From positions 102,923 through 166,922 of the forward strand of contig JABLTG010000019.1 in NCBI GenBank assembly GCA_016618085.1: 64,000 nt of DNA, written 5' to 3'. Below, in pieces: positions 9,001 through 54,100 of this stretch. Position 1 is the first letter of the stretch. Each line of letters opens with the position of its first letter. The notes under the pieces were generated by a model. The model saw only the letters and a program-made list of their open reading frames with translations, had not been told where the DNA came from and did not search any database. Both the position numbers and the translations under genes were made by a program. The DNA is from Neovahlkampfia damariscottae. Lineage: Eukaryota > Heterolobosea > Selenaionea > Neovahlkampfiida > Neovahlkampfiidae.

Positions 9001-12000
9001 ATTATTTAAATAATTAGAGCATGATGAAACAGTATAATTGATTGTTATTTCAGTTTCATGAGGTAACATGACATAATTTTGAATGTTCAATGGTACTTTA
9101 GTGCATGCATTTGGGTCTAATGTATCACACCAATATGATTTTTGATGATTAATAGTTGACACTGAAAAAGTATTTTCAATCCAAGTTTCAGGATAAATAC
9201 CACATCCTCTATTTCCATCCATTATTAAACTATTGAAATTTGTGAAATTAGTTTTATCAATTTCGTAGTAAATTCCTGAATTTGAAATATCATTATAACT
9301 GAAATTAAATCTCTTCAATGAAGATGGAAGAATGTTTACAAAATTTGATGTTGAGAATAACTTATTTTGTGATAAATCAAGAACTTGTAATGAAGTAAAA
9401 TTCATCATTGTTGGCAAAGCTCCACTGAAGTTTTGATTGATGAATGAGATTTTTGTTATAGCAAAAGTTGAATCACATTCAATTCTACTTGATCCAAAAT
9501 TTTGATTACAATAACAAGAAGGTCCAGTATCAGTGCAAGTTTTGAAAGTTAATTTGTTGAAAGTACAACCAGTTGTACAAGTAGCATTTACAAAATCATA
9601 AAGATCTGAAAATTGACAACTATGACCATAGTATGAAGGTTGACATTGACAAGTATCAGGAGCAGTACAATTTCCATGAGAAGAACAAACTGTTGATTGA
9701 CTTGAATCAAAACCAAAACAGATATTATTTTGACATTCATTTCCATTGTATCCACTATTACATGAGCAGTTATTTGGAGCCACACAAGAACCTCTTGTGA
9801 TACTTGTGCATGAGTTTGATAAATTTGCAGATTTCAAGTAACAAATTGGAAATTGACAATTGTTTCCATCATATTGACCAATATTACAAACACAATTATC
9901 AGGAGCAGTACAACTTCCATGAGCAGAACAAACACCAGCAAGTCCACTAGATACTCCATTACAAACATTGAATTGACAATCATTTCCATCGTAACCAGTA
10001 TTGCAAGTACAATTATTTGGTAAAGGACATGAACCTCTTGAATTGCATACATTTGGTTGGGTAGCGTTGATACTGTTACAAATTGCTATTTCACATTTGA
10101 TTCCAGTCCATCCAGGTGAACAAGAACATGTATCAGGGTTTGTACATGTTCCGTGACCAGAACAAACTGAAGAATTTAAAGCACTGATTGAATAGCAAAC
10201 AGGAGAAGCACAATTACTTCCTGACCATTGAGGTGTGCAAGAGCATTGATTTGGTCCAACACAAGTTCCTTTTGCTCCAGAACAATCATTCTCATTGTTA
10301 CAATTGAAAGTACTGCAATTTGAGTTTTGCCATCCAGCAAAACAAGAACAATTGTTTGCTCCAACACATAAACCATGACCAGTACAATCACCTACTTCAT
10401 CACAAACGGTGATATTACAAAAAGTTCCTGAATATCCTCCAGCACTGCAAATACAAGTATTTGGTGATGTACATTCACCATTTCCTGAGCAAACTTTTGA
10501 ATCTTGAGCATCCAATCCAAAGCAAATAGGTATTGAGCAGTTACTTCCTGTGTATTGTGAATTACAGCTACAGTTATTTGGACCAACACAAGTACCTTGA
10601 CCAGAACATGAATTTACATCAACACAGGTAATAGTTCCACAATCATTATCAGTCCATCCAGGTTGGCATTGACAATTATTTGGTGAAATGCAAGTACCAT
10701 GAGATGAGCAGACAGCGGCATCATTTGATGATTTTCCATTACAAATGTTGAATTCACAGTTATTTCCAGTGTATCCAGTGTCACAAAAACATTGTTCTTT
10801 TCCAATACAATTTCCATGAGAGCTACAAACAGTTGAATCATTTGATAATTTTCCTGAGCAAGTGTAAATGTTACATTGGTCTCCGAAGTATCCAGCTGAG
10901 CAAACACAGTTATTTGGTGAAACACATGTCCCATTTCCACTACACACTTGTGAGGTACTTGTTGAAGGAATATCATAACAAACAGGATTTTGACAATCAT
11001 TTCCTTGATGAGTTGAATCGCAAAGACATGTATTTGGTGCAATACATCTTCCATTTGAACTACAAACAGAAACATCATTTGATTGTTTTCCATTACAAAT
11101 AGCGTACTCACAATTTGTACCTGTGAAACCAGTTGAGCAATCACAAGAATTTGGTGAAACACAAGTTCCATTTCCACCTGAACAAGCAATTGGGTCCAAT
11201 TGACCATTACAATAAGAGTTTTGACAAATATTTCCTTCGTAACCAGTTGAACAAGAACACGTATCTGGAGCTGTGCAAGATCCATGTGAACTGCAAACAG
11301 TAGGATCATTGGATAATTTTCCATCACAAACAAAATATTGACATTCATTTCCACCATATCCTGTTGTACATCCGCATGTATTTGGAGCATTACAAGTTCC
11401 TCTGGTACCAAAACAAGCAGCTGGATCTATGCTGCCAAAGCAAACATTTGTTTGGCAATCCGTTCCTGTGTATCCTGCATTACAAACACAAGAATCTGGA
11501 TTTTGGCATGAACCTTGGCCATTACAAACAGTCACATCATTGGACAATTTCCCATTGCAAATAATGTATTCACAATTTGTTCCACCATGTCCAGCAGCAC
11601 AACTACAAGTATTTGGAGAGCTACACGTTCCATTGGTTCCAGAACAAGCATTTGGATCTATTAATCCATTACATTTTGGAGTTTGGCATTGATCACCTGT
11701 GTATTGACTTGCATCTGTACAAGTACAAATATCAGGTGAAGTACATGATCCATGAGCAGAACAAACATCACCAGCATTTGATAATTTACCGAAGCATTCA
11801 ATAAATTCACAGTCATTACCAGAATATCCTGAATTGCAAGTACAAGAATTTGGTGAACCACAAGAGCCACGTCCATTACAAACACCTGCTGTACCAGCTA
11901 AAATATTATTACATTTTGGCGTTTGGCATTGATTTCCACCCCATAATGAAGATTGTGTACAAACACAATTGTCAGTGGATGTACAAGTACCACGACCTGA

Positions 12001-13798
12001 GCAAACAGTTGGATCATCTTTATCAATGGAATAACAAGAAAATGAAGGTGTTTGACAATATGTTCCAGCCCACCCTGTGTTACAGTTACATTTATCAATA
12101 TTTCCTTGTTTTATTAAAAATTTAAAATAACTTACCAGAATCATCTGTTTTACAATCTCCATTGTTATTACAATAGCCGGAAAATCCAATAATATCAATA
12201 TTTCTATAAGTAGCAGTGATAGATTGATAAGTACCAAGTCCAAATTTTGCAAGTCCAACATAAAATGTTCCTGTGATTGGTACTGTTGCACTTCCAATGG
12301 TAGTATAGGTTGTTCCATCTTGTGAAAAAGAGCAAGTGAAAGTTGTACCAGATTTTTGAAGTTTTACATATCTTGGAGAACCTACATTTGATTCTGTTTG
12401 CACTAGAACTCCGGCAGCATTTGCTGCTGTACGATAAAAATGGAATCCTTTTGTATCAGTTTTATGACCACATGCAGACATTATTCCACCTCCAGCATAA
12501 CCAACTGCATTTTCAATATCTGCTCTTCCTTGTAATTCTTGACGAATAGCCACACCAACTGGAGCATTATAAGAACCTGAATCTACGCGAGCAATTATTG
12601 TTCCTTCTCCAGACACTTCTTTAAAGGCAAATTGCATTCCATCATATACATCACCATTCCTTAATGCAGTGAATCCAGCTTTTGAAAGAGTAGCAGTAGT
12701 TGCTGCAAATGAATAAGCAGGATTTTGATCTGAACCACCCATTTCAGGGAAAATATTATTAGTTCCAATAACTCTTGTTCTCCAACTATTATCACCACAT
12801 TGATTAAATGTTGCTGAAAAAAAAATATTAAACATAACTTTTTTTTTTTTTACGAATTGTTTTACAACCAGGAGTTGTTTGTTCATAGGAATAATATTGT
12901 GTTGAGGTGCATGATGTTGTTGCTGAAAATCCATATATTTTGATATTTGACAAATGGACATTGTCTGCATAACTGAGACCAGGTTGCATCGCTTAAAAAG
13001 TGAATAAAAAAGAACAAGAATTACCAATTCCAAAATTCTAATAAAGTAAAAAAAAAAAAAAAAAAAATACCAGTGCTGAGATAGCATTATTAGAAATTGT
13101 ACTTCCAACTTGAATCCATGTTAATTCATCATCAGAAACATAGGCTTTATAATTTGTTCCAATTTTTTCCAATCTTAAAAAAAAGAATAAGTAGAACAGT
13201 TGAGTACTTGATATATCCAAAATAAAATAGACTCATTATAGGTATTTGAAAATTTTGATTACTGACAGCAGAATTTGAGGTTCTTGAAACTAATCTAACA
13301 TTTGGATAAGAACCTGTGGTGTCATATCTATTTTGAACTACAAAACCAACTGAAGGTGATCTTTGGTTCAAGTTGTTATTATTGTTTACTACACCTCTGA
13401 ACTAACAAAAAAAATAAAAAAAAAAAAAAAAAAAACCATCAATCCAACAAAAGTACCACCAGATTGTTCACCATAAGCCTTGTTAAAAGCGGTTCCTGAG
13501 TCGTCTGATTTTCCAATTTTCATAGTAATAGATCCATCACCAGTAAAAGTCTTTTTGACGTTAAAAAAATTGATGGAATTACCCAAAACATGAAGGCTAT
13601 ATTTGCGTCTTGGCCAGTTGAATAGTCATCAATTGTATTCGCTTTGTTATTCACCTGAAGGTATAAGTCTTTACCAGTGAGAGTATTTGTTTGCCATGTT
13701 CTTAAACCTCCAACTAATAACGTTGGATTTGACAGTGCGGAAATATAATTTTCAAATGTTATTAGAAACAAAAACAGAAGGGTTATTTTGTGCTTCAT
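1..13798 (-). CDS. Giant secreted/surface adhesin: lectin-like domains, EGF repeats, LRR, IPT/Ig-like array (3' end outside window)
   Basis: Eight exons fit one frame: 13583-13798, 13437-13550, 13208-13401, 13071-13173, 13025-13037, 12854-12991, 12136-12813 and <1-12104, so at least 4,520 codons. The start carries a signal peptide (MKHKITLLFLFLITF). Next come two related beta-sandwich domains of the ConA-lectin/DUF1349 kind; each has a YIKL/YVKL strand and closes with IYGFS or IIGFS before a Cys. About 21 EGF-like modules (roughly 12160-9590) follow, then a short LRR-like stretch (9550-9240). The rest, from about 9.1 kb to the window edge, is a Cys- and Asn-glycosylation-rich array of Ig-like strands that becomes recognisable IPT/TIG (SSPSFGGLQITIFGNG) near position 60-130. 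The last exon is open for over 12 kb without an intron. The C-terminus, and so any membrane anchor, lies beyond the left edge. Adhesion or particle binding is inferred from the domains only. Confidence 0.85.
9590..12160 (-). repeat. Array of about 21 EGF-like modules inside the giant adhesin
   Basis: Each module is 35-42 residues with the pattern C..xxVCSGxGxCxxPNxCxCxxGYxGxxCE. In modules 3-10 two kinds alternate: one begins like CNGKLSNDxxVC and the next like CNGxIDPxAC. This suggests the unit that was duplicated was a pair. The array ends in CQFSDLYDF before the LRR-like segment. Confidence 0.85.
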
Positions 13799-18568: not shown

Positions 18569-19585
18569 TTATACTTGTATTAAACCTGGAAACCAGAAAG
18601 TGTTATCCACTGAGTCAATCCAAGCCATACCTTCTTGTAACAAAAGATTCAGAGTAGAATCAACTCTATCAGTAGTCCAACTCAACTCTTTCATCAATGA
18701 ATCTAAAGAATAAAAAAATTTCCTCAAAAATGCCTTACCTTTTTTAATATAACCACTTTTCTTTTCAAAAAAAATTTTCAATCAAAAATTGGTCACCTTA
18801 CCTGGGCTTTAAAAATTTTAAAATTAATTTTTTTTTGTTATACCCATTGTTAACACAATCGTATGATCTCTTGAAAGTTCACATGGTACACTTTGAACAA
18901 TTTCTTTGTTTCCAATTTTCAAAATGGTGAATCCATTTCCTAAAGGTTTAATTGATTTTATAGCTTGAACAATATCATTCTTTGATATTTTTTGTGAGTT
19001 CTTCGATCTAATCTCAATGATTCTGATAAAAAAAAAAATGAAAAAAAAAAAAAAAATTCTAACCTATTTGTCAAATCATCCAACTCGATCAAGCCACCAT
19101 TCTTTATAAAATGATAAATCAAAGTTATGAATTACTTGATCTTTTGTTTTTAAACAAACTTTTTCTTTAATTTTTTTTTTTTTTTACCTTCCACGATTTG
19201 AACTGATAATTCATAATAAAAATCACCAACTCCCAACAGTTTAGCCCAAAATCCTTTTGAAGCTAAGTTTTTTCATTTTAATTTTTTTTCATAAAAAAGC
19301 TTACAAGCAAGTGGATCAACTCCTATTTTCAAACACATTTGATGAAAATGAAATCTAAATTGTGGATCTTTGTTGATGTCTTCTTTATGATTTTTTGCAA
19401 ACTCTTCTAAACTCTTTTGAAAAAAAACCATTTTTTGACTCATCTATTCAGTTTTTTAAATTTCAAAATTTTTAAATTACAGCTTCTGTTTGAAAAGAGT
19501 TTAATTCTGATCCAACTGTTTCTTTCATTCGATTTTTTGTATCATTTCCTTTTTTTATTCCACCAATACCAACACCTCTCCTCAT
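18569..19585 (-). CDS. SNF8: ESCRT-II subunit SNF8/VPS22
   Basis: Nine exons: 19481-19585, 19305-19443, 19188-19262, 19136-19158, 19064-19101, 18844-19022, 18802-18806 (5 nt), 18739-18760 (22 nt) and 18569-18702; 239 aa. It begins [10 protein letters not shown]. Family blocks include [73 protein letters not shown] and [17 protein letters not shown] works in endosomal sorting. One intron is only 29 nt. The 5-nt exon CCCAG is needed to join TM to AQKSGY in frame; skipping it gives an early stop. Length is close to human SNF8 (258 aa). Confidence 0.95.
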
Positions 19586-23041: not shown

Positions 23042-23822
23042 TCATTTTAAAATTTTTAAAAATAATTCAGCTAAAGAATCTCTTATTTTGACATCTTTTT
23101 TTAATGATATTTCCATATACAAAATAATTAATTCATCTGCTTTTTTTTTAAATAGAATAGCTTCATTTTGATCATATTTGTGGTTTGTATTGTCTATAAC
23201 TAAAATAGATGGTTTTATTGTGATATTAGATTGATATTTTTTCAAATCTTTCAATGAATTTGATTCATTCATGTAGAAGAGTAAAATGTTTCCATCATTT
23301 TTTGAACTGTCTTCTTTGATGTATTTCATGGCAAATTCATTTGAAAAAGCATATATTTTGAACTTAAAAGCATAATATTTTTGATTGTACAACCAGTACG
23401 TGTTTTTTTCCATTTTTCTAGTTAAGTCATTCACATACTGTTGTCCTGTAGTCGTTTCATTACAGTAGACTGACAAATTCAAAAAAAAATTGGAAACTTA
23501 CTCCCCTATTAAGTTTTAGTTGATTTAATTTTTCTTACAATATTCAGAGTATGATATTTTTTATTTTTTGTTACATTTTCGTCATATTCGACGTTGATTA
23601 AAGAAGACAAGTTCATAGTTTCTGTTAAACTCAGTCGCTTTTTCATTTTAGAAACATCCAAGTTCATCATTAAATGAATTGGTGAGTCTTGAGTCACAGG
23701 ATGCAAACTTTTTCGTGGTATATCCAAGTTGGATTCTTCTTGAGAAGAACTACCAAATATACCCTGTAGAGATTTTCTTTTTGATCAACAAAAAAATCGA
23801 CTAACCTTTTCTTCTTTTCCAT
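23042..23822 (-). CDS. Ras-superfamily-like protein with degenerate nucleotide-binding motifs (probable pseudo-GTPase)
   Basis: Exons 23806-23822 (17 nt), 23539-23776, 23502-23505 (4 nt) and 23042-23469; 228 aa. After an 80-residue Ser/Lys-rich lead, the pattern matches a small GTPase: strand KYHTLNI, loop GIYCNETTTGQQY, later strand ILLFYMNESN, then SILVIDNTNH where N/TKxD should be. The P-loop Lys is Gln and spacing is altered, so GTP binding is doubtful. The P-loop sits at an exon junction just as in the GTPase at 15953-16697. Function unknown. Confidence 0.7.
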
Positions 23823-26550: not shown

Positions 26551-26640
26551 CTTGTTGACTTTTTCTCAGTTTAGCTATAAATAAGTATAAAATGATTGGA
26601 GGAAATGTCGACAGTTTATTGGTCAATTTCAGAACTGAAA

Positions 26641-27801
26641 ATGAAAACTGAAGGCTGCCCTTTCTCAAAAAACTCAGACTTGGAAACTTGTCCAGTTTCA
26701 GGAAACAAGAAAAATGAAACATTTCAAATCTTCCTTTCCTTGATGCAATTTTCAGGAAAAGACTCTGAAAAAGAATGTCCTTTCAGCTCAAAAGATTACC
26801 AAAAATTAGTTGAAAAATGTCCAAAATTCCAAGAAGATTGTCCTTTCAAGGGAGTAGACACTACAGAAGACCTTTCAAAAATAGTTGACCAAATTCCAGT
26901 TGGTCATCCAAAATGCTCTGCTTTTGAAGGAAAACTTGATGAAGTAAAAGTTGTTATTGAAAAAAATGATATCTATGAAACATTAATGAACAGAAGATGG
27001 GACTTATTCTTTGAAAAACCTATCAAATATATTGAATTGGCTCAAAAATTAAAAGATGGTACATTAACAAATCACATGACTGCAAATGGCATGCCTTTTA
27101 TTCAAAGATTTATTAAATTAGATGTAAATGTTGAAGATTATAGAATGTTTCTTTCTCAAATGCTTTTTGTTTACGAGGCAATGGAAGAAGAACTTGAAAA
27201 GAACAAAGACCATCGTTTAATCAAACAAATATATTATCCACTTGAATTAAATAGAGTTGATGCAATTAAAGAAGATTTAGTTTTTTTTTATGGAAAAGAT
27301 TACAAAAATTATATTAAACCAATTGAATCTATTCAAAAATACACAAACAGAATTAGAGAAGTCTCAAAAACAAATCCAGCTTTATTAATCGCACATTCAT
27401 ATACTAGATATTTAGGTGATTTAGCTGGTGGTCAAATTCTTAAAAAAAAAGCAAAAAAAGCAATGGACCTTGATGAAGAAGACGGAACAAAATTTTATGA
27501 TTTCCCAAATATTTCAAATCAATCTGCTTTCAAACAAGAATACAGAGAAATGTTGAATACTTTAAACATTACTGAAATTGAATCTCAAGAAATTGTCAAT
27601 GAAGCAAATATTTCATTTGAATTCAACATTAAATTATTTGAAGAACTTGAAGAAAAACATTTCAAAAAAGAAACTACATCACCAAAAGTATTTGTCAATG
27701 AAACTTCAAAAAACTCATCAACAATGTTTACAGGTTTCAATTTAGTTGTGATGATTTCTCTCGCTTTATTATTGGTGTATTTAGTTTTCAAAATGAAATA
27801 A
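26641..27801 (+). CDS. Heme oxygenase, tail-anchored, with Cys-Pro-rich N-terminus (copy 1)
   Basis: Single exon, 386 aa from ATG 26641. A promoter-type ATTGGTCAATTT lies at 26618-26630, between this ATG and an in-frame one at 26605, which favours 26641. It opens heme to biliverdin, CO and iron. The catalytic domain has the proximal-His region TNHMTANGMPFIQRF, the distal signature YTRYLGDLAGGQILKK and FYDFPNI. A single hydrophobic helix at the very C-terminus anchors it. The first 110 residues carry repeated Cys-Pro motifs (GCPF, TCPV, ECPF, KCPK, DCPF) and HPKCSAF, like heme-regulatory motifs of mammalian HO-2. A paralogue lies at 42727-44082. Confidence 0.93.
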   Translation: MKTEGCPFSKNSDLETCPVSGNKKNETFQIFLSLMQFSGKDSEKECPFSSKDYQKLVEKCPKFQEDCPFKGVDTTEDLSKIVDQIPVGHPKCSAFEGKLDEVKVVIEKNDIYETLMNRRWDLFFEKPIKYIELAQKLKDGTLTNHMTANGMPFIQRFIKLDVNVEDYRMFLSQMLFVYEAMEEELEKNKDHRLIKQIYYPLELNRVDAIKEDLVFFYGKDYKNYIKPIESIQKYTNRIREVSKTNPALLIAHSYTRYLGDLAGGQILKKKAKKAMDLDEEDGTKFYDFPNISNQSAFKQEYREMLNTLNITEIESQEIVNEANISFEFNIKLFEELEEKHFKKETTSPKVFVNETSKNSSTMFTGFNLVVMISLALLLVYLVFKMK

Positions 27802-27854: not shown

Positions 27855-28884
27855 TCATTCCATTTGTTCCTCATCCACTGAATCTAAGATTAAATTTCCC
27901 AAGTTTCCTTTTCTAAATAGAGCTAAAAAATGATGTGCTGCATTCAAAATGTTCTCTTCTTTACCTGTTTCTTTTCTTGATAATGTACATATTCTGATTA
28001 AAAGTTGATTGATGTCATCTATTGGTTCTTTCATTTTGAATACATCAACATATTGAAAACACTTTCGAAGATTCAATTGAAATAATAAATAATCAACTAA
28101 CAGAAAAATAGGAACTACTCGATCTGAAATTGAATGAATTAAAGATAATTTTAATCCACGTTCTAGTGAGTCAACCTTTGGAATCATAATACCTGGTGTG
28201 TCCAATAGAATACAAGTTGGATCTTTGGAAACTTCAAAACCTTGTAAATTTCTTGTTACTCCAGGTTCAAAACCTAATTTTCATTAGAGAGGTTGGATTT
28301 TACCTTTTTTCGCAGTCTTTTTATTGTTCACAACTCGATGACTCCTTTTCATTGCATTGATAATACTAGATTTTCCTAAATTTGGCTATTTGTTATGCTA
28401 TATCAATATCTTACTAAACCACTTGAAGAATTATTTAAATTTTTGAAAACTTACTAGATCATCATCTGATAAGGTAATGAATTGAATTTCTTCGATAAGT
28501 TTAATTTTTCAATTGCAAATGGTATAATTTTATTAATATTCCTGTTGTTCACAGTACTAAATTTAATGTTTTTTCAATAAAATTTTCAATTTCTCACCTT
28601 GTGAAAATGACAAAATTTTTTTTAAAACGTTCAATTATTTTTTTTTCCATGTTATGATTTCCAATGTCTGATTTATTGAAAATGATGATTCTTTTTTTTT
28701 GTTTAAAGAATTCTTCTAATTCATCATTTTTTGATGAAAATGGTGCTCTTGAGTCTCTCACTTCAAGAATAACATCAACACTTTTAATTTTTTTTTTCAT
28801 TAAATTGATATTGCTGTGCATATGTCCAGGAAACCAATTGATATTAATATGAGATGGAATTTCAAATACTTTTCGTAGTTTCAT
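27855..28884 (-). CDS. MTG1: Mitochondrial ribosome-associated GTPase MTG1 (YlqF/RbgA family)
   Basis: Exons 28598-28884, 28455-28556, 28415-28421 (7 nt), 28304-28385 and 27855-28273; 298 aa. The G motifs are circularly permuted, as in the family: WFPGHM and EVRDSRAPFS first, then G4 NKSD, the P-loop YGLPNLGKSS, EPGVTRN and DTPG. It matures the large mitoribosomal subunit. The first Gly of the P-loop is encoded by the 7-nt exon TGGTTTA. Introns are 29-41 nt. A second ATG lies 6 bp upstream at 28890. Confidence 0.93.
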
Positions 28885-28987: not shown

Positions 28988-29836
28988 ATGAAAAGACTAA
29001 CAAATTTAAAGAAAATTTTTATTCAACAGAATTTTTCAACCAAAAAAAAATTTCGGAAAGCAGACAGAATTGAAAAAGTAAAAAGAATTTATTTCTAATA
29101 GTTCAAGAATTTTCTTTCTCAATTTAAAGAAACTAAACCAAAATTTGATCTCGGAGAAATAGATTCAAATGAAACAGCTAAAGAAAATTATATCAATTCC
29201 GAATTTTCAATGGATGATGAATTATTCGGAGAATTATTTGGAATTGAAGAAGACGGTGAGAAGGGTGACAAAAAAAAAGTCATGAAAAATGTGAATAAAC
29301 AAATTGATTTCTTCAATAAACTTGATGGAATGTCTGATTTTGAAAAAATGATTGACAACAAAAAAGTCAATAAAATTGTTAATAGTTACAAACAAAGTGT
29401 TGAAGAAAAAGAAGAAGAAAATCAAAATATCATTTCTATTTCAATTTCAAATGAAAAATATAAAAATTTTAATAGAGAAGAATTTGAAGAAAAATGGAAT
29501 CAAAAAGGATATGAAATTGTTCAAATTGTTGAACCAGGTTATTTACAATCTAATTATATCATCCAATTGAAAACTTTGAAGAAGGAAAATGTTAAAGTTA
29601 AGAAATCAAATGAGAAAGTTAAAGTTGAATCACAACAAGAGACAAAAGAAAAAAAATTGAGAGAGTTGACATTGAAACTTCAAGAAATGATTAAAAAAAA
29701 TCCAAAGAGATCAAAGAAAATTTTAAACCAATTGAATTTGGCATCATCAAAAAAAGAAAAAAATGATATTACAATTGAACCAGTTGAAATAAAACAAGAA
29801 ATTGAAGAAATAGACGAAGAAATCAATGAAACGTAA
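28988..29836 (+). CDS. Hypothetical protein with mitochondrial-type presequence, 274 aa
   Basis: Exons 28988-29077 and 29102-29836. The first exon encodes a basic, Ser/Gln-rich start (MKRLTNLKKIFIQQNFSTKK) that looks like a mitochondrial targeting signal. The body is acidic and highly charged with a coiled-coil C-terminal half; I do not recognise it. The 24-nt intron GTAAAAAGAATTTATTTCTAATAG removes an in-frame TAA; it would be the shortest in the window. The alternative is a start at 29210 with no intron. It lies between the mitoribosome factors MTG1 and METTL17/Rsm22. Confidence 0.6.
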
Positions 29837-29893: not shown

Positions 29894-31319
29894 ATGAATT
29901 CTGGAAATACTAGAATTCCAAAAGCATTAGAAGAAAAAATTAACGAAATGATCAAAAGTTTGTCAACAAAATTATCTTATCATTTTTTTTTCTACAGATT
30001 ATCCTAAAGCATTGCTAAGAGATTCATCAAAACATTTATCTGCAACTTTTAGAGTAAGAACAGGTGGTTATGGAAATCAATTTAATTTTAAAAACGTCAA
30101 TAATGAAATTGGTAATTCAAAACAACAAGATCAAATGAATTTAATTGACACATTGAAATCAGGAAATGAACCAACAGAAATCAAAAGAAATATGATGAAA
30201 TACTCAGAAACAGATGGTATCATTAATTCATTACTAATTATTATTTACAAGTTGTGGCCTATATTGCACATAGAATTCCTGGAATTTACGGTACAATCAC
30301 TAGAATTTTCAATGAAATCAAAAAGAAAATGCCAAATTACAAACCATATTCAATGTTAGATTTTGGAACAGGTCCTGGTACTTCAATTTATGCCATGAAT
30401 CAAATATTTCCAGACTGTAAAGAAGTAATGGCTGTTGAACCTTCAAATGAAATGATGGATGTTGGAATGAAAATATTGGAAGATTTAGATATCAATATCA
30501 GTTGGAGAAGGTTTTTAAATGAAAATATGAATAGAAAGTTTGATTTTGTAATCTTCAATTTTCTCTTTATTTAATTTTTTAGATGACAGCTTCTTATGTA
30601 TTGAATGAAATTCAACAATCAACAGATCGTGTAAGAATTATTCAATCACTTTGGAAATTATCAAATGGGATTTTAATTTTCATAGAACCAGGTAAAATAA
30701 TCATTGAATTACTCACAAAAATGAAAAGGGTAAAATACATTTTCTCTCATCCTTTTAACAAAAAGAACACCAATGGGATTTAATTTGATCAAAGAAGCAA
30801 GATCAGTTTTATTGAATCAATTTAACGATGTTTCTATATTAGGACCAGTATTTGAAATTTTCAATTGATTTTTTTTTCCAGTGTACTCATGAAGGGCAAT
30901 GTCCAATGAAATCAAATTCATGGTGCCATTTTAGTCAAAGATCTGACAGATTAAATTTTCAAAAAATAACAAAACAAGGAATTACAAAAAGTTATGAAGA
31001 TGAAAAATTTTCTTATGTTGTATTCATCAAAAAAGATTTAATGAAAAACGAAATTGATGATGCATATAAAAAAAATAATTCAAGAATTATGACACCACCA
31101 AAATTGAGAGGAGGTCACTCAGTAAGATATAACTCAAATTTATAACAAATCTCAATAGATTATGGATGTAAATGCATTTTTAATTTTTACAAATTTTAGT
31201 TTTGTACTTCCGACGGAAGTTTTGTAGAAAAGAAAGTAATAAAAAAATCAGATGGTAGTGATAAATATAAAATGTCAAGAAAATTATTTTGGGGTGATAT
31301 ATTTCCATATAAACTTTAG
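29894..31319 (+). CDS. METTL17: Mitoribosome assembly protein METTL17/Rsm22
   Basis: Exons 29894-29957, 29998-30216, 30252-30547, 30583-30691, 30729 (1 nt), 30766-30847, 30882-31121, 31159-31167 (9 nt) and 31200-31319; 379 aa. The SAM-type fold shows MLDFGTGPGTSIYAMNQ, SYVLNEI and IFIEPGTPMGFNLIKEAR. Then comes the Cys-rich segment CTHEGQCPMKSNSWCHFSQR and FCTSDG, the iron-sulfur ligand set of this family, and the end KLLWGDIFPYKL. It acts in small-subunit mitoribosome assembly. The EPGTPMGF motif needs the single base at 30729. The stop TAG overlaps the convergent gene's stop by 4 bp (31316-31319). Confidence 0.93.
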
Positions 31320-32046: not shown

Positions 32047-32366
32047 ATGAGCGAAGAAGAGGAAGAGGATGAATTTGATCGTATAGTTAATCAATTTGGA
32101 CCTTGTAAAGAAGCATATATGTCTATGGATGCATGCCTTGATGAAAATAATCATTCATGGGTAACCAAAAAAAAAATAATAACCAAGTGCGTCTTCAGGT
32201 TCGTTTTTTCTTAAAAATTAATATATAGATCATTTGTCAATCAAAGGTAAAAGAATTCAAAAAATGTTTTGAAAGTACTCTTCAAAATGATAAAGACGCT
32301 CAACAAAAAAGTTTGAAAATAATGTCGGAAATTCTAATAAAAAAAAATAAAACTAAAAAATTTTAA
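32047..32366 (+). CDS. COA4: Cytochrome c oxidase assembly factor COA4 homologue (twin CX9C)
   Basis: Exons 32047-32160 and 32229-32366; 83 aa. The order matches COA4: acidic start MSEEEEEDEFDRIV, first C-x9-C helix (PCKEAYMSMDAC), Trp, two residues, then the second C-x9-C helix (CQSKVKEFKKC). It is expected in the mitochondrial intermembrane space. W-I-I-C has the same spacing as human COA4 (W-x-x-C), which fixes the splice at 32160/32229. The 68-nt intron is an outlier and contains an internal AG|GT at 32198/32199. Confidence 0.85.
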
Positions 32367-32370
32367 GATA

Positions 32371-32705
32371 TTATTTTGCTTCTTCTTTGATTGTATCCCA
32401 TTTTACTTTCCAGTATTTCATTTTTTTAGCTGGAACATCAGAAATGAAACCTTCTGGAACATCTTCTGTAACTAATTCTGTTTTATATGGTGCAAAATAT
32501 TTTGATTCATCTCCTCTTGAGAGTTTGTACTATTTTAATTTTTAATATTTTTTTTTTTTTTTTTTACATGTGCAACGTTTAATTTAGCAGTGTGATAGTT
32601 GAAATATAAAGTTTCACCCCATACAAGTGTTACCATACTAAATCCGAATATAACTGCGGCTGTAGCTTTAGGAGCTTTTCTCATCAAGCTTAAATGTCCT
32701 GCCAT
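32371..32705 (-). CDS. Small membrane protein, 98 aa, possibly mitochondrial
   Basis: Exons 32568-32705 and 32371-32529; the intron is a 38-nt T-rich stretch. The basic start MAGHLSLMRKAPK precedes one helix (ATAAVIFGFSMVTLVWG), and a polar C-terminus ends KYWKVKWDTIKEEAK. This layout is common in small respiratory-chain or import subunits, but I cannot name it. Its stop lies 4 bp from the COA4 stop. Confidence 0.65.
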
Positions 32706-32882
32706 TCTTCTTTGTAACGAAAATTTGAATGAAAAACAAAAAGTGAATTTAATTGGTCAAAAAAAATAACCTTAAAGAGTTAAATTTTAAAAAAACTTAA
32801 AATTTAGTTAAAATCAAAGAAATAAAATTATTTTCTCTTTCATTGAAGCACCAGAAAAATTGAACCAATCATTTTATTCCTA

Positions 32883-33599
32883 ATGTCCTCGCAAAAACAA
32901 ACAAAAAGTCGAAAGAAAAAGACAAAAGAAAGTTCTTCACAAAGAGATGTCCTTTCACAAGGATCAACTGAAGATGAAAATTATGAAATTAATATGGGTG
33001 ATAAAACTCAAGATTTGAATATGACAAACACAGATGATATTGAAACACCAGTTGCGACTCCAAAAAAAGTTGTAAAACCATCATCTGCAACACCAAAAAA
33101 AACAAAAAAAATTGAAGGAACACATTCATACAACTTGAAAAATGATGAAAAGAATACAACAAAAACAAAAACAACAGATAAAATTAAAAAACCAAGGAAA
33201 ATGAGAACTTTTGAATATATGAATAGAAAACCAGGTGCTCAAGCGAACTCTGAAGGTTCACTTTTAGGAAAATCATATTGTATTCCAAAAGGTTCTTTTG
33301 CTGTTCTCATTCGTGATATTATTACAAGTAGCGGCTCAACTGATATTAAATTAACCAAAGAGTGTGTTGCTGTTCTTCAAGAAAAAACTGAACAATATAT
33401 GGTCAACTTTTTTTGGATTGCAAATATTCTTCCAAAATTGAGAAACACACATACTGTTCAAATGAAAGATATCAAATTAGCAAGATTAATAGCTTCAAAT
33501 GATTTAGAAATGAACGTTCACAAAAATAAATTGAATCCACTTTTTGAAGCGATTGGACAAAAACCAAAAAAGAGTAAAAAAGCAAAAAAAGATGAATAA
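32883..33599 (+). CDS. Divergent H3-type histone-fold protein with long basic tail (cenH3-like candidate)
   Basis: One exon, 238 aa. Residues 1-125 are a Lys/Ser/Thr-rich tail without the canonical ARTKQTARK start. Residues about 135-210 match the H3 fold: IPKGSFAVLIRDI (alphaN/alpha1), VAVLQEKTEQYMVNFFWIAN (alpha2) and HTVQMKDIKLARLI (loop 2/alpha3). Loop 1 (TSSGSTDIKL) is longer than in canonical H3, a feature of CENP-A proteins. A Lys-rich extension ends the protein. GAACCAATCATTTT stands just upstream of the start. Centromeric identity is inference; another histone-fold protein is possible. Confidence 0.75.
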   Translation: MSSQKQTKSRKKKTKESSSQRDVLSQGSTEDENYEINMGDKTQDLNMTNTDDIETPVATPKKVVKPSSATPKKTKKIEGTHSYNLKNDEKNTTKTKTTDKIKKPRKMRTFEYMNRKPGAQANSEGSLLGKSYCIPKGSFAVLIRDIITSSGSTDIKLTKECVAVLQEKTEQYMVNFFWIANILPKLRNTHTVQMKDIKLARLIASNDLEMNVHKNKLNPLFEAIGQKPKKSKKAKKDE

Positions 33600-39689: not shown

Positions 39690-39744
39690 TTCTTATTGGC
39701 TAAAAAAAAACAGTCAATTTTGTTATTAAAAAAAATTTTAATTT

Positions 39745-40980
39745 TTAATTTTGATATTTGAACTCTACATTACAAAAATTACCTTCTTTTAAATTTTGGC
39801 TTATGGTTGTGAAAAATATTGACGGAAACTGTAATAATATCAATTCGTCATAAGTTGTTGGATTTATTGATTCTATTCCTCCTCCTGTTAAAATTACATC
39901 ATTATTTGATATTTTATTCAATCTGTGTCCTGATATTTTTTTTAATTCTTTTGAACATATCAAATAACTCCATTGAAATGAAAGGAAATTAAATTCGTAA
40001 ATATCACCGATATCCTCTGTTGGTATTGATGTTATTTCATCCCCAATAGTTCCACCAACAATCATCATTTTACTACCAATCACAATTGAAACATGATCAT
40101 TCAATTTTGGTGGAACATCTAAAAAATAATGAAATGATGAGAGTCGAACCTCCGAATGTTTGTATTTCTCTCCATGTATAATTTAGTAAATTCAGTTCAT
40201 ATAAATTATTTGAATTTTCCTGATTAAGAGTATATCCTCCGAAAACAAACATTGAATCCAAGTATAATGAAGCTGAATGATTTGTAAGTTCAATTGGATC
40301 ATTTTTTGTATTGATACTCTCCCAGTTATTATTTAAAACTTTAAATATTTAATATTTGTCTTTAAATTACTTGAATATACAAATGTTTTGTTGCTAAAAT
40401 TACCTGAAATGTCACCTCCAAAACAAATTATTGAATCTTTATAAACGACAGCAGAATGACATCCTATATCCTTAAAAAATTAAACTATCATCAAATTTAC
40501 AGGAGGACCGTTTCTAAAATTAATAAAAAAAATTATTTTTTTTTACGTTGTTGGTGTTGTTTGAAGAATTTTCCATTCATTTTTCAAAATTTCATATTGA
40601 ATGATAAATTGATATTCATCTTGAATTACCGATAAAACACTTGAAAGAATTAATTTTTTAAAATATACCCACCGATAATTATCATTTTGCCATCATACAA
40701 ACTTGTTGAATGTGTACTTCGTTTTGCTACTTCATTTGGTGTGTCTTTTTTGTTCCATAATCCTGTTTTTAAATCATAACAGTACATGTTAGATTCGACT
40801 AAATCCCAATTCATGTCATCACCACCCTATTTTTCTTTAATTTTTTTTTTTTTTTACCCAAATGTATATTTTATGATCAAAATAAACTGAAGAATGATAT
40901 CTTCGAGGTGGTGGACCATTTTTTAAATTTGCTATAGTGGAACAAGTTATTATATCTTTTGATTTATATTTCGACTTCAT
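39745..40980 (-). CDS. Kelch-repeat protein
   Basis: Exons 40858-40980, 40669-40826, 40547-40639, 40501-40513 (13 nt), 40371-40470, 40150-40338 and 39745-40118; 349 aa. About five to six kelch blades are visible (PPPRRYHSSVYFDHKIYIWG, RSTHSTSLYDGKMIIIGG, GCHSAVVYKDSIICFGG, NHSASLYLDSMFVFGGY, NDHVSIVIGSKMMIVGG). The 13-nt exon supplies NGPP at the start of one blade, as in the first blade. No second domain is seen; the role is unknown. Confidence 0.85.
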
Positions 40981-42726: not shown

Positions 42727-44082
42727 ATGTATTGTCCATTTGATCACACTGAAGTTGAAAAACAAACTCCGAAAGCAGAAACCCAAATCAACTCAGCTTC
42801 AGCAAAAGTTGAAACAATCCAAGCTCAACCAGAGAAAACTTGTCCATTTGACAAGAAGGATGAAAAAGAAACTGTTGAAAAACATTCACTTTCTTGTCGT
42901 TTTGACAAAGTTGAAAAAAAAGTTGAAGAGAAAAAGACTTGTCCATTCAAAGACCAAACCAAACTTGAAGATTTTGATGTTATCAAAAAGATTCTCAACA
43001 AAACAGAATTAGATCCAGAAAGATGCCCATTCTCAGAAGGAAACATTTTAGAAATTTCCAAGAGCTGCCCAGCATTTCAAAAAGAAGAAGGTTGTCTATT
43101 CAAAAGATACAACACTTTGGATGAAATTGCTTCTTTATTTGATTCAATTCCAGAAGATCATCCAAAATGCTCTGCTTTTCAAGAAAACAAACAATTTTTC
43201 AAACAAAAGCTTGAAGAAGTTGATGATGAAGTTCTTTCTGTTTTTCTCAACAGAAGATGGGATGTTTATTTTGATGAACCACTTAGAAAAGAAAAGTTAT
43301 CTAGTGCTTTACACAAGGAAACAAAACCTAATCATATTAAAGCTGAAAGTGTTCCATTCATTAAAAGATTTGCTGCCTATGATTTAGATCCCAAACAGTA
43401 TAGAAGATACCTTTCACAATTATACTTTGTTTATCAAGCAATTGAATATGAATTAGAAAAAAACAAAGATCATCCTTTACTTTCAAAAGTATATTATCCT
43501 GATCAATTATCAAGAGTCAATGCATTGGAAATGGATCTTGATTACTTTTATGGAAATGACTTTAAAAAGAAGATCAAAATGATGGAAACCACAAGAGATT
43601 ATGTCAATAGAATTCATGAAGTTGGTGAAAAACAACCAGAATTGTTAATTGCTCAAGCTTATACTAGATATTTAGGAGATTTATTTGGAGGACAAATTTT
43701 AAAGCGTTGTGCAAAGAAAGCATTAAAACTTGACAAAAAAGGATATGCATTTTATGAATTTCCATATATTTCAAGTATTAAAAGTTTCAGAGATGGTTAC
43801 AAAGCGGACTTGGATGATTTAAATGTTACAATCAAAAAGTTACAAGAAATTGTTGATGAAGCCAATTTCACATTCACCTCAAATATCAGAATGACAACTC
43901 AATTAGATGAAAAAGATGAAGAAGATGATGCATATCCTTTAATTCCTTCATCAATGAAAAATGAAAACAGAGTGGTTATTGGAATGATTGGATCAGTATT
44001 TACACCTCTTGTTGCCATTGTAGCTTTAATTGCAATGTTATATGCTTTATTTTCATTCTATGAAAAAACTAAAATTCAATAA
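42727..44082 (+). CDS. Heme oxygenase, tail-anchored, with Cys-Pro-rich N-terminus (copy 2)
   Basis: One exon, 451 aa from ATG 42727. The CCAATCAAAAC motif ends just before it, so the longer frame from upstream is not used. The domain has KPNHIKAESVPFIKRF (proximal His), YTRYLGDLFGGQILKR and FYEFPYI. A C-terminal helix anchors it. The N-terminal 160 residues hold four CPF motifs (YCPF, TCPF, TCPF, RCPF), SCPAF, CRF, CLF and PKCSAF, longer and richer than in copy 1 (26641-27801). It conserves the catalytic residues, so it is probably active. Confidence 0.93.
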   Translation: MYCPFDHTEVEKQTPKAETQINSASAKVETIQAQPEKTCPFDKKDEKETVEKHSLSCRFDKVEKKVEEKKTCPFKDQTKLEDFDVIKKILNKTELDPERCPFSEGNILEISKSCPAFQKEEGCLFKRYNTLDEIASLFDSIPEDHPKCSAFQENKQFFKQKLEEVDDEVLSVFLNRRWDVYFDEPLRKEKLSSALHKETKPNHIKAESVPFIKRFAAYDLDPKQYRRYLSQLYFVYQAIEYELEKNKDHPLLSKVYYPDQLSRVNALEMDLDYFYGNDFKKKIKMMETTRDYVNRIHEVGEKQPELLIAQAYTRYLGDLFGGQILKRCAKKALKLDKKGYAFYEFPYISSIKSFRDGYKADLDDLNVTIKKLQEIVDEANFTFTSNIRMTTQLDEKDEEDDAYPLIPSSMKNENRVVIGMIGSVFTPLVAIVALIAMLYALFSFYEKTKIQ

Positions 44083-45677: not shown

Positions 45678-46451
45678 TTATTGATTGAATTTTAAATCAG
45701 GATTGATATCTTTGACTAATTTTGAGATTTTGTAATTTTTCACTTTTTTTTCAATTTTCATTCTATTGAAATTATTTCCAATGTATTGAGTTGTTGGGAC
45801 TAATGATATTCCATTTTTAAACATTTCAATTGTTACATTTGCAATATTATCACAATCATCAATTCCTGAATGATGACGACCTTCTAATTCTAAATTATAA
45901 TATTCCAACATATCTGTCATTCCATTGATTCTATTTTTAGTATATTTGGATAATAATATTTTTAAATTTGTCCATTTTTTAAAATATTTTGGAACTTGAA
46001 TGTTGGATGTTTGACATTGAAGACTGTGGAAGTTTTTAATTTTTTTTGTTTTTTTTTTTTACGGTAATATTGTTTTTAAATCCCAATCTCCACAGGTTAT
46101 CATTAATAGATTCTCTTGAGTTGGTTTTTCATTCATCATTGAAGTTAACCAATTTTCATGTCTTTTTCAAGTTAATTTTTTGTTTTATTACTGTTGAAGT
46201 GCTTTTTCAAAAGAAACTCCTTGTTTTACTGTTTCTGTAGTTATTCCTGTCAGTTGTGTGCAGAATTTAGTCAATTTTGGGTTATATTTTGGAGCAACAT
46301 AAAACTGGAACTTTGAAACTTTTTCCAATTTTTTCTCTTCTGTGTATTGCAATAATACTGAAGGAAATTCAATTATTTCTTGTGGGTTTAGTTGAATTTT
46401 ATCATCACAAGTAGCTTCAAAGTCTAATACGCATATAAATTTGTAGGACAT
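45678..46451 (-). CDS. ERI1/3'hExo-type DEDDh 3'-5' exonuclease
   Basis: Exons 46192-46451, 46063-46161 and 45678-46023; 234 aa. The DEDDh residues are in FICVLDFEATCDD (Exo I), LIITCGDWDL (Exo II) and HHSGIDDCDNIA (Exo III with His). The size fits a stand-alone ERI domain without the SAP domain. The family trims histone mRNA stem-loops or 5.8S rRNA and acts in small-RNA turnover. Confidence 0.88.
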
Positions 46452-46541
46452 TAGTGAGATGTGTTTAAAAATACAACGATAAATATGATTGGTTGTGCTT
46501 TCAACTTTGAATTTGAATTAATTCATGTTTTGACCGCTGTC

Positions 46542-47114
46542 TTAAAACTGACTTTTCCGTTCATTCTGATTAATCAGACCAGACATTAAAATCAAGGTTT
46601 CTTTCGGGATAGGACCGTCGCCAGCAGTACTGGCAGTTTTTGGATTTCCAATAAAATTTTGTATATTCATCAGAAATATATTTCTTGCTCCATTATAATC
46701 TCTTGGAAGAGAAAAATTACAATATTTACAATTGAAATAATCTTTTTTTTCCAAGTTTCCAATCTATTTTTCCACATGATCCACATGTACAACTGGTATA
46801 ATGTTCTGAAACTTCATGTACTTGAATAGAATCTTTTTGAGCAAGATGTTTTAATGTTTGACAAAATTGAAAATGAGACCAATGAAGCATTTTTCTCACT
46901 GTTGTACTATGAATTTTTCTTTCCCATTTTTTAATCATTCCTTTGACTGGAAATTTTGAAATCAAAATTTCATCATTTGAGATCTTTTTCAGTATTTTCT
47001 AGTTGAACAAAAGGTCTTTTTTGTTCAACTTGAACAACTTCAAGTAAAAATAACTGGCAAAATTAAATCTAATTGGCCACTTTTATCACAATAACCATCA
47101 ATTCATTGGCCGTC
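46542..47114 (-). mobile_element. Decayed, internally deleted Fanzor (eukaryotic TnpB) copy
   Basis: A 138-bp 5' leader (46977-47114, minus) is joined directly to the C-terminal end of a Fanzor/OrfB protein: LISKFPVKGMIKKW, TVRKMLHWSHFQF, the zinc ribbon SCTCGSCG and CKYC, and the RuvC-III motif RDYNGARNIF with its Asp. The frame breaks in a run of eight A at about 46743-46752 between LGKK and the second half of the zinc ribbon. RuvC-I and -II are missing, so this copy is dead. The downstream tail (46542-46640) is GC-rich for this genome. Confidence 0.85.
46977..47114 (-). repeat. 5' leader of the Fanzor-type element, copy A
   Basis: The minus strand here matches 63564-63710 (plus) over its full length except for a 9-base insertion AGAATTTTT in the other copy. 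It starts GACGGCCAATGAATTGATGG and ends at GATCTCAA. Confidence 0.9.
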
Positions 47115-48166: not shown

Positions 48167-51100
48167 TTATTCATGAGTACCAAATTGCCTCATTTCCATT
48201 TCCAACAGTTCAACATTTTTTTTGAAATTCATGTATCTCTTTGTCAAAACGAATCTTGACCAGGTATCAGAAATATTAACTTTAATAGTTTTTTCAACAT
48301 TCTTGAAGATATCATTTTCTAATTTTTCATATCTATTATCTACATTATTGATGGTATCAAAAATTTGTCTACAAGAATTTGCATCAATATTAACTTCAAG
48401 TGGAGAATTTTCACCATTCAAATAGGTATAATAAATATTGAAAGCATGATCTTCTTTTTTATCTCTTTGTTTTATTCTTTGAAATTTATGAATATCACGA
48501 TAACAAAGAACATTCTCTTGAGACCATTCTTCTTTAGCAAACAACAGAAACAAATCAAAAAATATTGGATCATTTAATCTCATATCTAATTCATCCCATT
48601 CTACTGGTTTACTTTTTTTTGATATTTTTTTCAATATGATTAATACAACTGATATAAATAATGGCAGAATTCCTTGATAAAAAGAAAATGCAAAATAAAT
48701 CACACTTCTTCCAACTGAAAAAAAATATTGTCCAAATTTTTGATAAAAATCATTTTCAGTTCCAAATAACAATGCACTATAATTGAGAAATTCAAAAAAG
48801 ATGTATGAAATGAAAATAAGAAATGCAAGTATTTGTTCAATTCTAAAATAGAAAGGATCACTTCCAACAAAGAAATCATTGATATTGTCTTTCAAAACTT
48901 TGATCCATGCATTTCTTCTATAAAATGATTTTGTTCGACTATCCATAAAATATTTAACAATATTAACTACAATATCAACAATAGCAATAGCCAATAAAAT
49001 AACGCCAAGAGATGTGTTTGTTACAAGATGAATTGTGTAAATACCATATGATTTTTCAGTTGAACATTCAAAATGTGGATAAAATAATGTAATGAATGAA
49101 ATATCAATAAATGATATAATAATCCAAAATATTGATAAAATGAAAAATGAAATACTTGGTCTTGTAAGATATTTCAATAGCAAGATAGTTTTGAAATAAT
49201 ATGATCTTTTGTTATCATCAATTGATACATGTTCTTTTTCTTTATTCATATTTATCAATAAAACATATCTAAGATAATTCAAAGGCATAATGAAAAATAT
49301 TGTTGTTAAAAAATTTGAATGTAACAAAGATTGAAAAAAGCATGAATATTTTGATCGAAATTCTAAATCAAAAAAGTAATGTTGAATTGATGATAATTTT
49401 CCTCCATATTGTGCAAATATTGCTAAAAATGGAATATATCCTCTTGATGATAATGGTTGATCATTTCTGAATTTAACAAGTGCAATGAACAATAAAATGT
49501 ATATTGCAAGTTCAAATACCCAATATTCAAAAGATGAATCAGATAAACTTTTTGAGAAATTATTCAAAGAAATAGCATCACAAGTTGATGTTGCCTCCGA
49601 AATATTAAACAATCTAGTTGTGACTGAAGTATGATATGGAAATTCTAAAGTAGCATTATTCATTGGGCGGTCAGAACAGACAATAGAAATGTAGTTGAAT
49701 TTTGATAAAATCAATTCATCCATTTCGATATTGAATCTTTGTTTTTCAAGAAACGGAAATTCAGGAGGTATTTCATTTTCATTTGGCAAAAGTAACCCAA
49801 TGCTCGGAGTTTTTCTTAATGATTTGATTTCATGATTTTGCAATTGTCCAAATTTGAATTTATTACCTTCAAACCAAGCAACAGCAATGAATATTGCAGT
49901 ATTGATTCCATTTTTTTCATGAAACGAAATACCACTCCAACCTTTTTGTTCACATATATTTGCTTCAAGAATAAATGATTTCTTCGTTTTATAAAATCTA
50001 ACAAAGTTGTTTTTAAACACAATACAATCAGGAACAACAACTGGTTTTGTTTCATTTTTCAATTGACAATTTTTACCTGTGAAAGGCGCTTTACAAATGC
50101 AACGATCAGGTCCAGAACAAATTCCATTGCTGGAACAAACGTTTATATCATTTGATAATTTTCCAAAACAATTTGTAATGCTGCATTCATTTCCAAAATA
50201 TCCAACTTGACAAGAACAATTATTTGGTGATATACACTCTCCAAGTGAAGAACAAGCACTAATTTGATTTTTTGGTATGTTGAAGCAATTAAATTGTGAA
50301 CAATCAAAACCATAATAACCATTTTTGCAAGTACAGTTATCATTTGAGTCACAAATACCATTCCCAGAACAAACGTCTGGATCTGAAACAGTAAAACCAT
50401 AGCATTTGAATGATTTTACATTTTCACAATTTTCTCCAAAATAGCCTTCAATACATTCACAACTATTCTTTGAAACACACTTTCCTTTTCCAGAACAGAC
50501 ATTTTTATCATTTTCGACTAAACCAAAACATATTGAATGTTGGCAGTATGTTCCATTGTATCCATCACTGCACTGACAAATATTTGGACCAGAACAATTA
50601 CCTTTCCCTGAACAAACAGTATTGTCACTAGAATTCTTTCCATAGCAAAGATTCAATTCACATTCGTTTCCAGTATGTCCTGAGTTACAACTACAATTAT
50701 TTGGTGAACCACATAAACCATTTCCAGAGCAAACAGTATTGTCACTTGAATTCTTTCCATAGCAAATATTCAGTTCACATTCGTTTCCAGTATGTCCTGA
50801 GTTACAACTGCAATTATTTGGAGAAATACAGGTTCCAAATCCAGAGCAAACAGTTACATCATTTGAATTCTTTTCATAACATATCTTTAGTTCACATTCA
50901 TTTCCTGTATATCCTGAATCACATGAACAATTATTTGGTACATTACACAAACCATTTCCAGAGCAAACAGTATTGTCACTTGAATTCTTTCCATAGCAAA
51001 TATTAAGTTCACATGTATTTCCTGTGTAACCATCAGAGCAACTGCAATTATTTGGAAGTATACATGTCCCATGTTGTGAGCAAACATATGGATCAGTAGA

Positions 51101-54100
51101 ATTTTTATCAAAGCAGACTGGAAATTCACAAACATCTCCTGTGTAGTTTGTATCACAAATGCATGAATCTGATCCTGAACATACACCATTTCCTGAACAA
51201 CTTCCAGGTTGTGTACCATTTGTTCCAAAACATATTGGTACATGGCATCTAAGCCCAAGGAATCCATCATTACACTTGCAAGTATTTGGTGAGGTGCAAT
51301 TTCCTTGAGATGTACAAACTGTTGAATCTGATGAATTTTTTCCATAGCAAATGAATAAATTACATGTTCTTCCAGTGTAGCCAGCAATACAATCACAATT
51401 GTTAGGAGAAGTGCATGTACCTTTTCCAGAGCAAACTGTGGAATCACTTGAATTTTTTTCAAAACAAATTGATAATTCACATTGAGCACCAGTATATCCA
51501 TTTTCACAAGAACAGTTATTGTATGATGAACAAACACCTTTTGAAGAACATACATTTGTGCTTGTTTCATTTATTCCATAACAACTTCGAAATTCACATT
51601 GTAATCCAGAATAACCAGTAGTACAGCTACAATTATCTGCAGATATACAAGTTCCAACTCCAGAACNNNNNNNNNNNNNNNNNNNNNNNNNNNNNNNNNN
51701 NNNNNNNNNNNNNNNNNNNNNNNNNNNNNNNNNNNNNNNNNNNNNNNNNNNNNNNNNNNNNCACCTTTTGAAGAACATACATTTGTGCTTGTTTCATTTA
51801 TTCCATAACAACTTCGAAATTCACATTGTAATCCAGAATAACCAGTAGTACAGCTACAATTATCTGCAGATATACAAGTTCCAACTCCAGAACAAACGGA
51901 AATATCAGTGGAATTCTTTCCAAAACAACTTGGAAATTCACATTGATTTCCTGAATACTTTTCATTGCAACTACAGTTGTTGATTGAACTACAAATTCCA
52001 TTGCTAGAACATACATTTGATTCTGTTCTATTTGTTCCAAAACATGCAAAGAATTCACATTCAGCTCCTGAATAACCAGTATTGCATGTACAATTATTTA
52101 ATGATCCACAAATACCTTTTCCAGAACATACATTTGAATCTGTTTCATTAATTAAAGAGCATGAATGAAATTCACAATTTCCTCCAGAAAAACCAACATT
52201 GCAAGAACAATTATTCAACGAGTCACAGATTCCTCTGGAACTACATACGGCAGAATTTGTTTGATTTAATCCACTACAAGAATGGAATTCACATTCCAAA
52301 CCAGAGTATCCAGTACTACAACTGCAACTGTTTGTTAATGAACAAACACCAAAACCAGAGCAAACATCTTTGTCAGTAGAATTTTTTCCAAAACATGTTG
52401 CAAATTCACATTGATTCCCAGAATATCCAGGATTACAAATACAATTATTAGGAGCAGTGCAGTTTCCGTGGGTTGAACAGGCATTCTCATCTGTTGAGTT
52501 CTTTCCAAAGCATGTTGAAAATTCACATTGAATTCCAGATGAATCAGTTTGACAGCTACAAACATTCAATGATGTGCAAGTTCCTTTTGAAGAACATACA
52601 TTTGTGCTTGTTTCATTTATTCCATAACAACTTCGAAATTCACATTGTAATCCAGAATAACCAGTAGTACAGCTACAATTATCTGCAGATATACAAGTTC
52701 CAACTCCAGAACAAACGGAAATATCAGTGGAATTCTTTCCAAAACAACTTGGAAATTCACAATCATTTCCTGAATAACCAGAAGTACAAACACATGAACC
52801 AGTGTCAACACAACTACCATGTGAAGAACAAGATGATGATACAGTAGATAACTTATTATTACATTTTGGAACATAATAAAAATGAGAATTGAAATATCTT
52901 GCTGTCACATCGACATAATGAAGACCTGAATTGATCAATTGAGGGATGTTTACTTCATTTGGCAGTGATTTGTTCCCTAATTCATAGTGCTAGAAGAAGA
53001 AGTGAGAAAGATTTTTGTTCATACCGTATTTCTTCCAAATACATACAATTTGTTTTCTGCGACCACTGCAGAATGAACTGTGCCTGCTGCAACTTTTGAA
53101 ACATTACTTAAACCATTTACTAGTGTTGGGACTGTGACCTGCGTGTCATTGATTCCCAAACCTAATTGACCACAAGAATTTGATCCAAAAGAATATAGAC
53201 TTCCATTATTTGAAATTACCAATGAATGAGCATCTCCACCGACAAAATGACGAGGATTTTCAATCCCTGGAATTAAAGTAGGAGTGTTTAAGTTCACCAA
53301 CCCATTGTTTATTCCTAATTGACCATTCTGTGAAATTGTTTAGAAAATATTTGATTCACTGAATTTAGTCCTGTGCTATAAAGTTTTCCATTTGTTTTCA
53401 AAAATAAAGTATGAGAAGATCCTGCAGCAATATCTTTTACATTAGACATAATAAACTGTCCTGCAGTCCTCTTTGTATTAGTTCCATCTCCTAATTCACC
53501 ATTCTAAAAAAATATTAATAGTTTATTCAAAATACAGCATTAAGTCCACATCCAAATGCTTCGCCAGTGACCAACAAGAATATCAAATGCTGACTTCCTG
53601 CTGCAATTGTTTTGACATTTGCGTTTGTATTGATCAGTGTAAATTTGATAATGTTGGTGGTTGATGTGCTGCATATTCTTCCATTCTTTCAAATTTACAA
53701 AAATGAAATATTTACCTTGGCATTCCCAGTTCCATAAATTTTCCCATCAGTTAATATTACTCCAAATTCATCACCGTGAACAAATTGTTTAATCTTTGTT
53801 GATATATAGGATATTGAATATGGAGTTAATTTGGATCGATAACTTTTATGGCCAAGTACACCCCACTAAATAATTAAGAAAAATACAAAAATTACTCTTC
53901 CCCATCCTTGAACGGATAATCTGTCATTTCTGTTCAGTAAATACGAAGCATCTAATGCATTTCCTATTCTTTTATATTGAACTGGTATTTTATAATTTGA
54001 AACTGGGGTTCTTGCAATTTGTCCTCGACGGTCATCACCAAAACTATATGATACATTATTAGATAATGCAAATGCATGGAATTGACCGAATACTGCTTTC

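Follow-up and report, generated by a model that had tools for sequence, protein, structure and literature searches.

A candidate one-nucleotide exon between two short predicted introns of a METTL17/Rsm22 gene

One-nucleotide exons are already known from plants and from Fusarium; that exons of this size are known, although very rare, was stated when the exon studied here was first proposed. As far as the accessible text of the reports describes them, the closest cases are as follows. In Arabidopsis APC11, the exon is a single A within a 422-nt interval, and this was shown by minigene substitutions (PMC4674806). The 1-nt microexons of plant APC11 and VPS55 are conserved among land plants, have RNA support, and are alternatively used in some species (PMC8831610). 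In Fusarium CYP621A, the one-nucleotide exon lies in an interval of 139 nt in F. graminearum, where the median intron is 56 nt, and is conserved in 20 orthologues and supported by RNA reads (PMC12940212). The [D1,2] stwintrons of fungi are a related system in which the donor of an external intron is interrupted by an internal one (PMC12403724), and mitochondrial one-nucleotide exons also have been described, for example, in placozoan cox1 (PMC5436844). In the literature searched, nuclear cases came from a handful of plant genes and a single family of fungal genes. No nuclear one-nucleotide exon of a protist was named among the listed matches of the open-access literature, subscription papers being outside its scope.

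The gene investigated here lies on the plus strand, at positions 29894 to 31319 of a 64-kb stretch of DNA from an AT-rich eukaryotic genome (the window, meaning the whole stretch that was analyzed). Pfam analysis of the predicted protein revealed an Rsm22 domain (PF09243; E value, 7.3e-69) at residues 93 to 376, matching profile positions 2 to 275 of 275, which places the protein in the METTL17/Rsm22 family. It is related to three solved mitoribosome-assembly chains, mt-SAF1/RSM22, METTL17, and yeast-type RSM22, whose hosts we take to be trypanosome, human, and yeast, respectively. From this homology, we infer a role in mitochondrial small-subunit assembly. Exon 1 (29894 to 29957) begins with the ATG at 29894, a start further upstream being possible. 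It is followed by exon 2 (29998 to 30216, with the start at 30010 in a run with this gene held out), exon 3 (30252 to 30547), which carries the methyltransferase core, and exon 4 (30583 to 30691). Downstream of the interval discussed below are exon 6 (30766 to 30847), exon 7 (30882 to 31121), which has a PC-HE-CP motif at its start, a nine-nucleotide exon, ATTATGGAT (31159 to 31167), encoding IMD, preceded by a 37-nt intron and followed by one of 32 nt, and the last exon with the stop (31200 to 31319). An open frame on the same strand (29102 to 29836) adjoins the gene upstream and is linked to it by our gene finder via a 39-nt intron; this frame may extend METTL17 at its N terminus or may be a gene in its own right.

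Exon 4 ends in CCA-G, the last G being base 1 of the glycine codon of EPG, and exon 6 starts with A-ACA-CCA, the first A being base 3 of the same codon. The 74-nt interval between them (30692 to 30765) contains GT only at 30692 and 30730 and AG only ending at 30728 and 30765; GC is absent from these 74 nt. It can be divided into a predicted intron 4a (30692 to 30728; 37 nt; GTAAAATAATC...GAAAAG), a candidate one-nucleotide exon (G30729), and a predicted intron 4b (30730 to 30765; 36 nt; GTAAAATACA...AAAAAG), with coordinates, sequence, and lengths exactly as originally given. A single base is therefore left between two introns that each have their own GT and AG. The junction is in phase 1, so that the glycine codon GGA of the EPGTPMGF motif draws one base from each of three exons, G30729 being its middle base.

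Five readings of the interval were translated: the single G kept, all 74 nt removed, all 74 nt retained, only 4a removed, and only 4b removed. The single-G reading alone was open to the end; the other four met a stop at the junction or within about 30 codons of it. Joining 30691 directly to 30766, which would give the junction sequence CCAGAACACC, yields ...IEPEHQWDLI with a stop after seven codons, and the broken frame that had been claimed for this join was reproduced. Stops of this kind, arising from straight splicing or from retention of one or both introns, also are what would be seen if the METTL17 gene were decaying or if mis-splicing into a stop were normal at this junction and served as a regulatory switch. 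We consider this very improbable, given that the remaining frame is conserved to the last exon, the nine-nucleotide exon included.

The readings then were compared using a scoring profile built from 24 bacterial relatives, all of them loci found in a scan of genome contigs; scanning of viral contigs found no relatives. Two weak loci (L020 and L021, scoring 18.9 and 13.5 bits), whose open frames misalign at the motif, were kept in the profile. The single-G model scored 219.1 bits. Cut at their first stops, the other four readings scored 99.2 to 101.1 bits (99.2 for the 74-nt splice). Read through with X, they scored 97.3 to 98.6 bits, except for the removal of 4a only, which reached 200.1 bits (100.6 bits when scored up to its stop). 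When the choice of one or two GT-AG introns was widened to a region from about 30590 to 30847, 28 of the combinations tried proved open, and the single-G model again scored best among them. The second best of these removes a 103-nt intron (30692 to 30794; 194.9 bits) and with it the residues GTPMGFNLIK. Like a 106-nt intron (30692 to 30797; 193.8 bits), which also is open, it would give an in-frame protein shortened by ten or eleven residues, beginning with the glycine. Use of either intron is highly unlikely in our estimation: the scores are 24 to 25 bits worse, the deleted stretch is conserved, and the lengths are more than twice that of the longest of the 114 introns described below. The existence of 28 open readings does mean that the original prediction, in which the motif could be read only if the G was kept, was worded too strongly; keeping the G gives by far the best reading.

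Of the 24 rows of the bacterial alignment, 22 show the E of the motif, 22 the P, 18 the G, and 20 the T, the figures for P and G including the weak row L020. Alignments to the two best-matching solved chains (mt-SAF1/RSM22 and METTL17) are free of gaps across the G30729 junction. G30729 was found to be required for the conserved frame. The nine-nucleotide exon further downstream adds 6.6 bits to the profile score.

Introns throughout the window were predicted with a purpose-written gene finder that allowed only GT-AG introns and was seeded with the six other METTL17 introns, 4a and 4b being left out of the starting set. The refined run, whose gene set was predicted with METTL17 still in training, yielded 117 introns in 34 predicted genes (114 of 25 to 44 nt; median, 34.5 nt), and the sizes of 4a and 4b are typical of this set, in line with the proposal that both are typical of the genome. 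The three longer predicted introns measure 107 nt (at the N gap, 51667 to 51761), 91 nt, and 89 nt. The 89-nt join is doubtful, and the 91-nt one (39692 to 39782, minus strand) more likely separates two genes, one with Kelch repeats and the other for a Ste20/Mst-like kinase with a SARAH domain. The statement that an undivided 74-nt interval would be the longest intron here fits the confident set, with these three joins left aside. The starting prior of the refined run favors short introns, leaving 3% weight for any length up to 150 nt, so the absence of long introns is partly a choice; the first run began from a broad prior, and 12 of its 120 introns were 53 to 119 nt long (median of the run, 35 nt). 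In stretches of ten genes that matched Pfam domains or solved structures, every one of 45 introns, 4a and 4b included, was 29 to 44 nt long.

Very small exons also were predicted elsewhere. Thirteen of 95 predicted internal exons are 25 nt or shorter, and six of them are 1, 4, 5, 6, 7, and 9 nt long. Homology backs the nine-nucleotide METTL17 exon, a 5-nt exon of a VPS22/SNF8 gene (18802 to 18806, minus strand; introns of 37 and 41 nt), and a 7-nt exon that falls within the P-loop region of a gene for an MTG1 GTPase (28415 to 28421, minus strand; introns of 33 and 29 nt), the latter two in gap-free alignments to solved SNF8 and MTG1. The 4- and 6-nt exons come from prediction, and the gene with the 4-nt exon (23502 to 23505, minus strand) has no Pfam match. 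The METTL17 stretch from 31122 to 31199 (78 nt; 37 + 9 + 32) is a neighboring case of the double-intron layout. A second one-base exon, in a gene at 32047 to 33599, was called in an early run, was gone in the refined run, and is not counted.

Other features of the window also were noted. There are two heme oxygenase genes (26605 to 27801 and 42727 to 44082, both on the plus strand). On the minus strand, a 4,121-amino-acid open frame with EGF-like repeats and an IPT/TIG domain runs to the window edge (1 to 12363), and a very large predicted gene (48167 to 56721), which encodes EGF-like repeats and, at the C terminus, an RGS domain, is interrupted by 95 N (51667 to 51761). A stretch at approximately 46705 to 46875 (minus strand) matches the Cas12f1-like_TNB domain (PF07282; E value, 1.4e-8), as found in TnpB/Fanzor nucleases. 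The gene finder fused this stretch to an RNase T exonuclease gene (45678 to 46938); a Fanzor remnant adjacent to a host gene is the probable explanation. The eEF1A of this genome presumably is without the opisthokont insertion.

With METTL17 removed from training, the one-base exon was still called under all three length priors tried, the other gene models in this held-out run having come from runs that had included METTL17. On splice signals, the margin of two introns over a single one of 74 nt was 3.7 nats when length information was left out and 7.6 to 11.5 nats when it was used, both figures being before the 4-nat model cost of an added intron and any frameshift cost. After the 4-nat cost, the two alternatives are level without length information (-0.3 nats), so it is the frame and the length distribution that carry the case for the one-base exon. 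Among the 114 introns, the donor scores of 4a and 4b stand at the 98th and 89th percentiles, respectively; the acceptor scores are weak, at the 18th and 23rd percentiles. The best of eight branch-site patterns tried was present in 50 of the 114 introns. When one splice site was disallowed, the gene finder either produced an exon of zero length or split the gene, depending on the run; the comparison of readings rests on the held-out run and the list of 28 rather than on these runs. Protein homology, the intron-length distribution, and held-out gene prediction all argue for the candidate one-nucleotide exon first proposed for this METTL17/Rsm22 gene.

To assess chance, 20,000 introns of 74 nt with matching composition were simulated. 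AG-N-GT with both halves of 25 to 44 nt arose in 1.3% of them, AG-G-GT in register in 0.11%, and the latter with splice-site scores at least equal to those here in 0.04%. These figures bear on two further explanations. In the first, a single 73-nt noncanonical intron, either GT-AA (30692 to 30764) or TA-AG (30693 to 30765), would be removed, and the extra G would come from the intron edge, as the last or the first base of the interval. The resulting mRNA, CCAGGAACACC, is identical to that obtained with G30729, which puts this explanation beyond the reach of protein homology; likewise, ordinary cDNA or RT-PCR would show the extra G and not its origin. Such an intron nevertheless would have unusual ends and a length outside the 25 to 44 nt of 114 of the 117 predicted introns, and it leaves the central AG-G-GT as a coincidence of the 0.11% class. 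We regard it as improbable, on grounds other than the rarity of GT-AA or TA-AG introns here, which is no measure given that a GT-AG-only gene finder could not find them elsewhere. The second explanation is a sequence or assembly error, in which the sequence lacks one base at the edge of an exon and the real gene carries a single in-frame intron of 74 nt. The scaffold is imperfect, as the 95 N attest, and the site lies within an A/G-rich stretch. However, an intron of about twice the usual length would be needed that accidentally carries AG-G-GT near its middle, the remaining METTL17 frame is intact through the last exon, and a casual rather than systematic look noticed no forced frameshift in other genes of the window. 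We assign such an error a low probability.

We are fairly confident that, in this nuclear METTL17/Rsm22 gene, G30729 by itself forms a constitutive exon, located between two introns that would be removed sequentially. The splicing of 4a and 4b, its order, and the constitutive use of the exon are what we infer for this junction. With a GT and an AG of its own, each intron would be recognizable across the intron. Simultaneous action of two spliceosomes on either side of a single base is hardly conceivable, and 4a and 4b would therefore be excised one after the other by intron definition. Either order would be workable, since the second step keeps a proper site: removal of 4a first would give CCAGG/GTAAAA, with the donor intact, and removal of 4b first would give GAAAAG/GAACACC, with the acceptor intact. 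Half-spliced RNAs would read CCAG/GGTAAAATACA if 4a alone were out and GAAAAGG/AACACC if 4b alone were out. The mature mRNA would read CCA-G/G/A-ACA, encoding EPGT with the three-exon glycine codon. An origin of the two introns by duplication, considered in view of their shared GTAAAATA and AAAAG ends, is unproven; their alignment score was reached by 11.5% of 6,441 intron pairs. The GTAAAATA sequence occurs 9 times in the window versus 5.7 expected, and 14 of 100 shuffles reach 9, which is not clearly above chance.

One-nucleotide exons mark the smallest unit that a spliceosome can join. With both introns below 40 nt, there is little room for two spliceosomes here, and sequential intron-defined splicing is directly testable. 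Tiny exons also may become false frameshifts or false noncanonical introns in annotation and RNA-seq mapping that are unaware of them. In a broader proposal, which we hold to be evenly balanced between right and wrong, the spliceosome of this eukaryote would act by intron definition on introns of about 25 to 44 nt with almost no lower limit on exon size, and one-base exons and three-exon codons would recur genome-wide. The 74-nt unit (37 + 1 + 36) then would be a very compact example and the first nuclear case known to us outside plants and fungi.

The METTL17 junction can be set against the described systems as far as the available text of their reports allows. Like the fungal stwintrons, it has two neighboring introns that probably are removed in succession (PMC12403724). 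It does not fit the pattern of stwintrons with an interrupted donor or acceptor: the frame is lost when the entire interval is removed, and each of the two introns carries a GT and an AG of its own, with one base staying between them. As in Arabidopsis APC11, one base needed for the frame lies inside what was formerly a single intron; unlike that case, the METTL17 base is a G and the introns are less than 40 nt (PMC4674806). The plant APC11 and VPS55 microexons share the size of 1 nt and were missing from reference annotations, whereas the candidate METTL17 exon is a case of one gene, compared with bacterial relatives and predicted from its sequence (PMC8831610). The Fusarium CYP621A exon differs from METTL17, which measures only 74 nt in all and again is a single gene seen at the sequence level (PMC12940212). 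In other respects, the two cases are strikingly alike: both were deduced from a frame gap in a conserved motif, and both have an AG-G-GT arrangement whose G stands in the middle of a glycine codon and an interval about twice the length of the usual intron (PMC12940212).
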